NCBI RefSeq assembly: GCF_018739865.1
Contig: NZ_JADOER010000016.1
Coordinates: forward strand, 56,923 to 120,922
Length of the DNA: 64,000 bases
Source: Leptothoe kymatousa TAU-MAC 1615
Lineage (GTDB): Bacteria > Cyanobacteriota > Cyanobacteriia > Phormidesmidales > Phormidesmidaceae
Reading direction: 5' to 3'
Shown here: positions 17,909 to 20,448 of the stretch, in pieces
Numbering within the stretch: the first letter of the stretch is position 1
How the letters are laid out: every line of letters begins with the position of its first letter
Made by a program: the position numbers and the translations under genes
The notes under the pieces: generated by a model
Database searches by the model: none
Told to the model about the DNA's origin: nothing
What the model saw: only the letters and a program-made list of their open reading frames with translations

Positions 17909-18109
17909 ATGGCTTTGGATATCGGACAAAAGGTGAAGGTGGTAAGAGTCAAGGATCGGGTGTCTGATAGTGTTGCCAAGCGTCTAGGACAGCAAGGCAC
18001 CGTTACGCAGTTCAAGATGGTAGACGGCAGCGGTGTTGGTGTTGTTGTAGAATTTCCAGATCAATTCTCTAGCTGGTTTTTTGAAGATGAGCTCAAGGTA
18101 ACTGCATAG
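17909..18109 (+). CDS. petP: Cytochrome b6f complex subunit PetP (DUF2862)
   Basis: A 66-residue protein matching the SH3-like DUF2862 family. Its Synechocystis member (Ssr2998) is PetP, a peripheral cytoplasmic-side subunit of cytochrome b6f that influences linear electron transport. Visible features are IGQKVKVVRVKDRVSDSVAK, the FKMVDGSGVGVVVEF strand pair and the terminal WFFEDELKV. A strong ribosome binding site (GAGGAGGG at 17892-17899) precedes the ATG by about 9 nt. A terminator follows. Confidence 0.82.
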   Translation: MALDIGQKVKVVRVKDRVSDSVAKRLGQQGTVTQFKMVDGSGVGVVVEFPDQFSSWFFEDELKVTA

Positions 18110-18146: not shown

Positions 18147-18170
18147 GGGGCACCTCATCTGGGTGCCCTT
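18147..18170 (+). terminator. Intrinsic terminator after petP
   Basis: GGGGCACC-tcatct-GGGTGCCC forms a GC-rich stem with a 6-nt loop, followed by TTTGTTT. It separates petP from the Get3d gene. Confidence 0.8.
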
Positions 18171-18222: not shown

Positions 18223-19311
18223 ATGGCGTTGATTCTTACATTCCTTGGCAAGGGGGGCAGTGGACGCTCTACCTGCGCGATCGCAACGGCTAAAAAGCTA
18301 GCGAACCAGGGGCAGCGAGTACTTTTAGTGACAGAGGATGCCGGTCCTGGCTTTGGCCTCCTGTTGGGCAATGAGCTATCCAATACGCCAACAGCCATCG
18401 ACGCAAATCTATGGGCGATGCAGCTGCAGTTCACACAACTGTTAGAGCAAAACTGGGACCAGCTGAAGCAATTTGAAGCCCAATATCTTAGGGACCCATT
18501 TTTTAAAGATATGTATGGCCAAGAGCTGAGTGTATTACCCGGCATGGACCAAGCTCTTACCCTAAATGCCTTGAGAGAATTTGATGCCAGCGGTGACTAT
18601 GATGTGATTGTGCATGATGGCCCCGGCGATCAGGCTAGCTTACGGATGTGGGGCATGCCAGCCGGCATTGACTGGTATTTTCGCCGGTTTAAACAAGTCT
18701 TCCAATCGTCACAGTTTTCCAAGGCAATCATGCCGTTCGTCCAACCGGTGGCGGGAGCTATTTTAAGCGGTGGTCTATCCGGAGATATGTTTGACCATCC
18801 TGAAATAAAGCAAAGTACAAATGTCATTACCCAAGGAATTGCCGCTGTTAAAGAACCCATGAGGGTTAGGGCTTATTTGGTGACCAACGACGATACTATT
18901 GCGATCGCTACCGCGCGTTACCTTTGGGGTGCTGCCCAGCAAATTGAAATGACGGTCGCCGGCGTCCTCTTCAATCGAGGCACCAATCCCCCCGCAGAAT
19001 TTGAACCGTTACCCATATATAACCTGCCAACGGCAGAGGGTTGGACATCTCTGGTGGAGGCCATGCCCGCCGACTACATGGCGACACCCTCAGCACCAGC
19101 CCCAGTTGATGTGGACGTCAGCACTGGCACCGTGCGCTTGTTTTTACCCAGTTTTGACAAAAAACAAATCCAGCTCACCCAATATGGCCCAGAGGTTACC
19201 ATCGAAGCTGGCGACCAACGTCGCAATTTAACACTACCTGCACCCCTAAAAGGGCGTTCAGTCACGGGTGCCAAATTTCAATCAGGGTATTTGATCCTGT
19301 CCTTCAATTAG
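18223..19311 (+). CDS. Get3d-like ArsA/Get3 ATPase with C-terminal HSP20-like domain
   Basis: A 362-residue protein. The N-terminal SIMIBI ATPase has GKGGSGRST at 9-17: the family signature Lys10 is present, but the usual P-loop Lys is Arg15. Switch motifs VTEDAGPG and IVHDGPGD follow. The last ~75 residues form the ArsA_HSP20 (alpha-crystallin-like) domain, with FLPSFDKKQIQL and ending GYLILSFN. This architecture is that of Get3d, the branch found in cyanobacteria and chloroplasts, whose client is unsettled. It sits immediately upstream of chlG and downstream of petP, a thylakoid context suggesting a role with membrane or pigment proteins. Whether the Arg is general in the family needs an alignment. 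Confidence 0.85.
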   Translation: MALILTFLGKGGSGRSTCAIATAKKLANQGQRVLLVTEDAGPGFGLLLGNELSNTPTAIDANLWAMQLQFTQLLEQNWDQLKQFEAQYLRDPFFKDMYGQELSVLPGMDQALTLNALREFDASGDYDVIVHDGPGDQASLRMWGMPAGIDWYFRRFKQVFQSSQFSKAIMPFVQPVAGAILSGGLSGDMFDHPEIKQSTNVITQGIAAVKEPMRVRAYLVTNDDTIAIATARYLWGAAQQIEMTVAGVLFNRGTNPPAEFEPLPIYNLPTAEGWTSLVEAMPADYMATPSAPAPVDVDVSTGTVRLFLPSFDKKQIQLTQYGPEVTIEAGDQRRNLTLPAPLKGRSVTGAKFQSGYLILSFN

Positions 19312-19434: not shown

Positions 19435-20448
19435 ATGACTGCCAATCCCGAGCCAGTTAAACCTAACCCCACCGATACCCAGGGTCAATCGGAGGGCTCT
19501 AAAGCACGCCAACTGCTAGGCATGAAAGGGGCTGCCGATGGCGAAACATCCATCTGGAAAATTCGCCTCCAGCTGATGAAGCCCATCACCTGGATTCCTC
19601 TCATATGGGGAGTTCTGTGTGGTGCCGCATCATCTGGACACTTTGAATGGACTCTAGAACATGTCATGGCGTCCTTAGCCTGCATGCTAATGGCGGGGCC
19701 GCTGCTCACAGGCTATACCCAAACCATTAATGATTACTACGATCGAGAACTCGATGCCATTAATGAGCCCTATCGACCGATTCCATCTGGCGCTATCAGT
19801 CTAGGCCAGGTGCAGGTACAGATTTGGGTGCTACTCCTCGGTGGGATTGCCGTCTCCTACGGTCTCGATCAGTGGGCCAACCACGCTTTCCCCATACTGA
19901 CTGCCCTAGCTCTAGGCGGCTCATTTGTTTCCTATATCTATTCCGCACCTCCGTTGAAACTGAAACAAAATGGATGGCTCGGAAATTATGCCTTGGGTGC
20001 CAGCTACATTGCCCTACCTTGGTGGGCGGGTCATGCCCTGTTTGGCGAACTGAATGCAACGGTTATTTTCCTCACCCTGCTCTACAGCATGGCGGGGTTA
20101 GGCATTGCAGTTGTGAATGACTTCAAGAGTGTTGAAGGGGATAAGGCCTTGGGCCTGAAATCGTTGCCCGTGATGTTTGGCATTGGTACCGCAGCCTGGA
20201 TTTGCGTATTAATGATTGACATTTTTCAGGCTGGTATGGCTGGTTATTTGATCGCCATACACAAAAATATCTACGCTGTTCTGCTGATCCTGATGATCAT
20301 TCCACAAATTACATTTCAAGACATGTACTTTTTACGTGACCCATTAGCTAACGACGTCAAGTATCAGGCAAGTGCCCAGCCATTTTTGGTTCTGGGTATG
20401 TTGATCTTGGGTCTGGCCCTGGGACATACCGAGTATTTGGTGGGTTAG
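19435..20448 (+). CDS. chlG: Chlorophyll synthase
   Basis: Membrane prenyltransferase that attaches the phytyl or geranylgeranyl chain to chlorophyllide, the last step of chlorophyll a synthesis. It is 337 residues with about nine helices. The first Asp-rich motif is NDYYDRELDAINEPYRPIPS and the second is VVNDFKSVEGDKALG. The hydrophilic N-terminal ~40 residues are typical. It is 123 bp after the Get3d gene on the same strand. Confidence 0.97.
   Translation: MTANPEPVKPNPTDTQGQSEGSKARQLLGMKGAADGETSIWKIRLQLMKPITWIPLIWGVLCGAASSGHFEWTLEHVMASLACMLMAGPLLTGYTQTINDYYDRELDAINEPYRPIPSGAISLGQVQVQIWVLLLGGIAVSYGLDQWANHAFPILTALALGGSFVSYIYSAPPLKLKQNGWLGNYALGASYIALPWWAGHALFGELNATVIFLTLLYSMAGLGIAVVNDFKSVEGDKALGLKSLPVMFGIGTAAWICVLMIDIFQAGMAGYLIAIHKNIYAVLLILMIIPQITFQDMYFLRDPLANDVKYQASAQPFLVLGMLILGLALGHTEYLVG

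Follow-up and report, generated by a model that had tools for sequence, protein, structure and literature searches.

Arginine in the P-loop of petP-linked cyanobacterial Get3d, and repeated erosion of the loop

Arginine is the commonest P-loop state at residue 15 of cyanobacterial Get3d proteins of the Slr1794 type, lysine being in the minority, and the whole loop has been eroded about five separate times while the remainder of the protein was retained, a pattern absent from the papers searched. The gene from which we set out lies in the window, by which we mean the whole stretch of 64,000 nucleotides of Leptothoe kymatousa TAU-MAC 1615 that was analysed. It encodes an Slr1794/NosGet3d-type Get3d, a new member of a known family with a known substitution. 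The arginine variant itself is not new, since Barlow et al. (2023; PMC10248533) reported it for NosGet3d and for 'certain' cyanobacteria, Leptolyngbya among them, and called the NosGet3d arginine distinct from most cyanobacterial homologues. Our survey adds that arginine is the rule, that the loop was lost repeatedly, and that the linkage of get3d to petP is strong and old.

The boundaries of the get3d reading frame are exact, and the protein begins MALILTFLGKGGSGRSTC. As shown in Table 1, an N-terminal Get3/ArsA NTPase-fold domain (ArsA_ATPase in Pfam, E 3.4e-30) is followed by a C-terminal alpha-crystallin-like domain, so that the HSP20-like domain recognised in the earlier note is confirmed. 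The same holds for its reading of the P-loop, in which arginine stands at the lysine site of Get3/ArsA and the signature (intradimeric) lysine, K10, is kept. The NCBIfam model NF050088, 'Get3_fold_NosAFP', matches residues 1–361 with 535 bits (cut-off 325); a literature search found no papers on the name 'NosAFP'. The closest solved structures are those of NosGet3d (3igf/8egk, E 1e-108) and AtGet3d (8elf, E 2e-37). With the cytosolic Get3/TRC40 model TIGR00345 the protein scored 79.7 bits, below the cut-off of 135, and with the ArsA model TIGR04291 it scored 36.9 bits, far below the cut-off of 650. The CXXC zinc motif is absent from the window protein, whose sole cysteine is C18; the A-loop insertion, which the paralogues carry after residue ~252 in the alignment, is missing; and Arg15 takes the place of the canonical Walker A lysine in the cytosolic Get3/TRC40 motif GKGGhGK[ST]. 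Among the matches from named relatives, the window's genus groups with Leptolyngbya sp. PCC 7375 and Adonisia turfae.

Table 1. Position and supporting evidence of the features in the window
Feature	Coordinates	Strand	Evidence
petP, small regulatory subunit of cytochrome b6f	17909..18109	+	NF050003 105 bits, cut-off 65; PF11061
GC-rich hairpin then T-rich tail, petP-get3d spacer	18147..18169	+	similar hairpins at the equivalent place in several same-genus loci (L177, L180-L182)
get3d (Slr1794/NosGet3d type), 362 aa, ATG start	18223..19311	+	NF050088 535 bits; phmmer to 3igf E 1e-108
P-loop GKGGSGRST, residues 9-17; Arg15 (CGC, 18265-18267) replaces canonical Walker A Lys	18247..18273	+	Arg in 92/143 Slr1794-type sequences
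Asp39, aligned with yeast Get3 switch I catalytic Asp (D57); variable in family	18337..18339	+	sequence alignment only
Asp132, switch II Asp	18616..18618	+	110/110 with intact P-loop; 17/33 when eroded
HSP20/alpha-crystallin-like C-terminal domain, residues 304-361, including GDQRR motif	19132..19305	+	PF17886 (ArsA_HSP20) E 1.2e-15; R333 invariant
chlG, chlorophyll synthase	19435..20448	+	TIGR02056 570 bits, cut-off 436

Several known systems can be set beside the window protein. NosGet3d (All4481 of Nostoc sp. PCC 7120) belongs to the same family, its match extending over residues 1–361, and shares both the two-domain architecture and the arginine at the canonical lysine position, but its loop has decayed further, to GKSGVARTK where the window protein has GKGGSGRST, and there is no switch I aspartate at the aligned position. 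AtGet3d of Arabidopsis (At1g26090) has in common with the window protein the fold family, an alpha-crystallin domain with GDQRR and the absence of an A-loop; it differs in that it keeps the canonical lysine (GKGGSGKTT), is chloroplast-targeted and is more divergent. Cytosolic Get3/TRC40 and ArsA share the deviant Walker A NTPase fold and use lysine at the residue-15 site. Unlike the window Get3d, they have no C-terminal alpha-crystallin domain (PMC10248533). Structures of NosGet3d and AtGet3d were refined or solved by Barlow et al. (2023; PMC10248533), who described for both a closed apo dimer whose hydrophobic chamber can accommodate a membrane helix, found Pi in the active site of AtGet3d, and showed that Get3d binds a tail-anchored protein, for which the alpha-crystallin domain was not needed. 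The kcat values in that work were 0.28/min for NosGet3d, the arginine form, 1.10 for AtGet3d and 2.7/min for yeast Get3; no active-site mutant control for the NosGet3d ATPase came up when its text was searched for 'mutant' and 'mutation' (PMC10248533).

In order to establish how general Arg15 is, a check that the earlier note had proposed, Slr1794-type sequences were taken from two genome draws, one of the window's relatives and one even over the class, and from further DNA, which gave a usable set of 143 sequences from 32 cyanobacterial families. Residue 15 was R in 92 of these, K in 22, C in 12, Q in 9, S in 4 and another residue in 4, and it was arginine in all seven same-genus relatives (7/7). 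A named set of 80 closer relatives, which overlaps the first set, gave a similar picture (R 71, S 5, K 2, C 1, T 1). One same-genus get3d (L005, in the metagenome-assembled genome G006) contains one in-frame TGA, which is probably an assembly error or the mark of a recent pseudogene.

The GKGGxG loop is kept in 110 of the 143 sequences (R 76, K 22, C/S/T 12) and lost in 33, where it reads, for example, GATPEQQTA, GQAGQ-RAG, GQSRSSCAI or GESSIARTK. With the P-loop columns left out of the tree, loss of the loop takes at least five changes and the alternation between lysine and non-lysine at least ten. These counts are approximate, because support is low in the deep part of the tree and long-branch attraction may be at work. 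The loop-less genes are functional, as judged from pairwise dN/dS values of 0.045–0.18 within the loop-less clades; these values and the intact reading frames rule out pseudogene decay in the loop-less relatives. A second, loop-eroded Slr1794-type copy (L145, GQAGTGQTT) was found beside an arginine copy in genome G142.

The arginine form is still constrained, since K10, G11 and G14 are each 100% conserved in the 110 intact-loop sequences, as is Asp132. Taken with the state of Asp132 once the loop is eroded (Table 1), this pattern in the aligned sequences suggests that arginine forms still make use of a site for phosphate or nucleotide, which is freed from constraint after loop loss. Asp132 losses all fall in loop-less sequences and amount to five inferred changes; a tree-aware pair test of the link between the two losses lacks power. 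Y152, G107 and R333 are 100% conserved even in the 33 loop-eroded sequences, and the strongest conservation lies in YGQEL..LPGMD, in the WYxRR helix and in the GDQRR motif of the C-terminal domain. Switch I appears degenerate throughout the Slr1794-type proteins, the Asp39 equivalent being present in 45/76 arginine forms and 3/22 lysine forms, and the structure may place the counterpart of D57 elsewhere.

The second cyanobacterial Get3d, of the Sll0086 type, shares with the window protein the Get3/ArsA fold and the C-terminal alpha-crystallin domain. It differs in that all copies read have the canonical motifs GKGGVGKT and STDPAHSL, in its inserted A-loop region and in its slower evolution. 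GKGGVGKT was present in 21/21 sampled copies. All 21 searched genomes with an eroded-loop Slr1794-type protein (21/21) also had this paralogue, and its GKGGVGKT was intact in 22/22 copies. Since the loop of the paralogue is invariant, only the petP-linked protein has lost ATPase features. No Sll0086-type copy was found in the window's own genome, the assembly of which is only 75% complete.

The neighbours of get3d, which the earlier note had taken for a b6f subunit and chlorophyll synthase, are indeed petP and chlG, both above curated cut-offs and on the same strand. With adjacency defined as same strand and <1 kb in the class draw of genomes, petP lies directly upstream of get3d in 102/119 genomes that have both genes (28 families), and chlG lies directly downstream, within 1 kb, in 58/129, so that the surroundings of the gene in its relatives are not random. 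The chlG linkage is thus much weaker than the petP linkage, which persists where chlG has been relocated. In the named set, which is biased to close relatives, petP adjoins get3d in 75 of the 78 loci uncut at their upstream edge. Exceptions are family f5 and most of family f26, which we take to be the Thermosynechococcus type, where petP, get3d and chlG are scattered. We conclude that the petP-get3d(-chlG) cluster is ancient. Neither the petP-get3d nor the get3d-chlG linkage was found described in the papers searched: no gene-neighbourhood analysis was found in Barlow et al. 2023 (PMC10248533), and operon, gene cluster and chlG had no match in the text of the PetP cryo-EM paper.

Neither type of Get3d was found in family f2 (13/13 genomes searched, 1.6–3 Mb; e.g. 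L146-L149), where the alpha-crystallin matches are only short ORFs of 143–185 aa. In all nine f2 genomes in which both genes were found (9/9), petP and chlG abut at a distance of 18–29 bp, the layout that removal of get3d from the middle of an ancestral petP-get3d-chlG cluster would leave. Because these genomes have chlG and petP without either Get3d type, the role of Get3d is dispensable in f2, and its absence there conflicts with the published claim of complete conservation of Get3d across cyanobacteria (PMC10248533). The hairpin between petP and get3d is possibly a partial terminator or a processing site; the fold of the whole spacer has z = -1.65, which is not significant by itself. With this hairpin present in the window's genus, petP may be transcribed partly alone, and co-transcription is not certain.

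Get3d has no agreed client, and the petP-get3d(-chlG) cluster points to specific partners, namely b6f and ChlG-YidC-Hlip. The earlier note had suggested a part in membrane-protein or pigment-protein assembly in thylakoids, with altered ATP turnover. As the neighbourhoods are non-random and lysine is the minority state, the link to thylakoid or pigment-protein assembly is now better supported, with petP rather than chlG as the tighter neighbour and with the clients as candidates; altered turnover is plausible, for switch I and the A-loop have degenerated too, and the P-loop is gone from several lineages. We tentatively propose that the petP-linked Get3d may well be a low-turnover or nucleotide-gated holdase, able to do without ATP turnover and presumably serving small thylakoid proteins with a single membrane span. 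The arginine form would still bind nucleotide or phosphate and would turn it over slowly. The closed homodimer would hold the membrane helix of such a protein in its hydrophobic chamber, candidates being PetG/PetL/PetM/PetN of b6f and Hlips such as HliD, and the helix might then be passed to the thylakoid insertase YidC, near ChlG and b6f. ATP would serve as a slow, dispensable gate or dimer stabiliser and not as a motor, and the canonical Sll0086-type paralogue would keep the ATP-driven Get3 chemistry. Hlips and PetG/L/M/N are small, span the membrane once and would leave the ribosome before insertion. YidC and Get1, the latter a subunit of a receptor for Get3 in eukaryotes, are members of one superfamily. 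ChlG co-purifies with HliD, Ycf39 and YidC (PMC6175206), and photosystem and b6f proteins have already been proposed as possible Get3d clients (PMC10248533). Counting against the holdase model are the reported ATPase activity of NosGet3d (PMC10248533), the weaker link to chlG, the life of f2 without Get3d, and the petP-get3d hairpin.

It is conceivable, if somewhat doubtful, that the petP-linked Get3d goes further and is a nucleotide-independent pseudo-ATPase acting as a photosynthetic-membrane holdase, a state reached repeatedly via an arginine intermediate while the paralogue kept the ATP-driven role; the window protein would then stand at the arginine stage. Natural P-loop-less orthologues, with the intact paralogue as internal control, offer a direct test of the need for ATP hydrolysis in a Get3-fold chaperone.

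We think it unlikely that the protein is an ordinary ATP-driven targeting factor for tail-anchored proteins like cytosolic Get3, in which arginine merely replaces lysine. ATPase activity and tail-anchored-protein binding have been reported for both NosGet3d and AtGet3d (PMC10248533), and the loop around the arginine is tightly conserved, but the degenerate switch I, the missing A-loop region and the existence of whole lineages without a P-loop under purifying selection all argue against it. Quite improbable is a nucleotide- or phosphate-sensing b6f accessory that acts with PetP and not in membrane-protein targeting, chlG being a bystander. The petP link, far above that to chlG and kept where chlG has moved, would suit such an accessory, but Get3d also occurs in land plants, which to our knowledge have no PetP. 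Although Pi in the AtGet3d active site (PMC10248533) is consistent with sensing, f2 genomes keep petP beside chlG without Get3d, and the hydrophobic chamber and the binding of tail-anchored proteins are experimental. Finally, a local mutation, a sequencing error or early decay of Arg15 in one strain deserves almost no credence, even with an assembly of limited completeness and with fully eroded loops among relatives, because arginine is the majority state; it is moreover shared by every same-genus relative, in place of the normal lysine that the earlier note had said would indicate a local mutation, the other loop residues do not vary, and get3d within the genus has pairwise dN/dS values of 0.047–0.189.

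Two further loci were recorded in the survey. Genome G166 of the class draw (family f32, 3.8 Mb, one contig) lacks petP, the Slr1794-type get3d and chlG together and contains a 413-aa alpha-crystallin ORF of paralogue size; non-photosynthetic life is ruled out by the presence of photosystem reaction-centre genes, and an assembly gap or deletion is the more likely cause of the missing block. A cyanobacterial petP-get3d-chlG cluster also occurs on a contig (L211, JAAUUT010000176.1) labelled 'Candidatus Gracilibacteria bacterium isolate SU_1_2', which is probably mislabelled or mis-binned.
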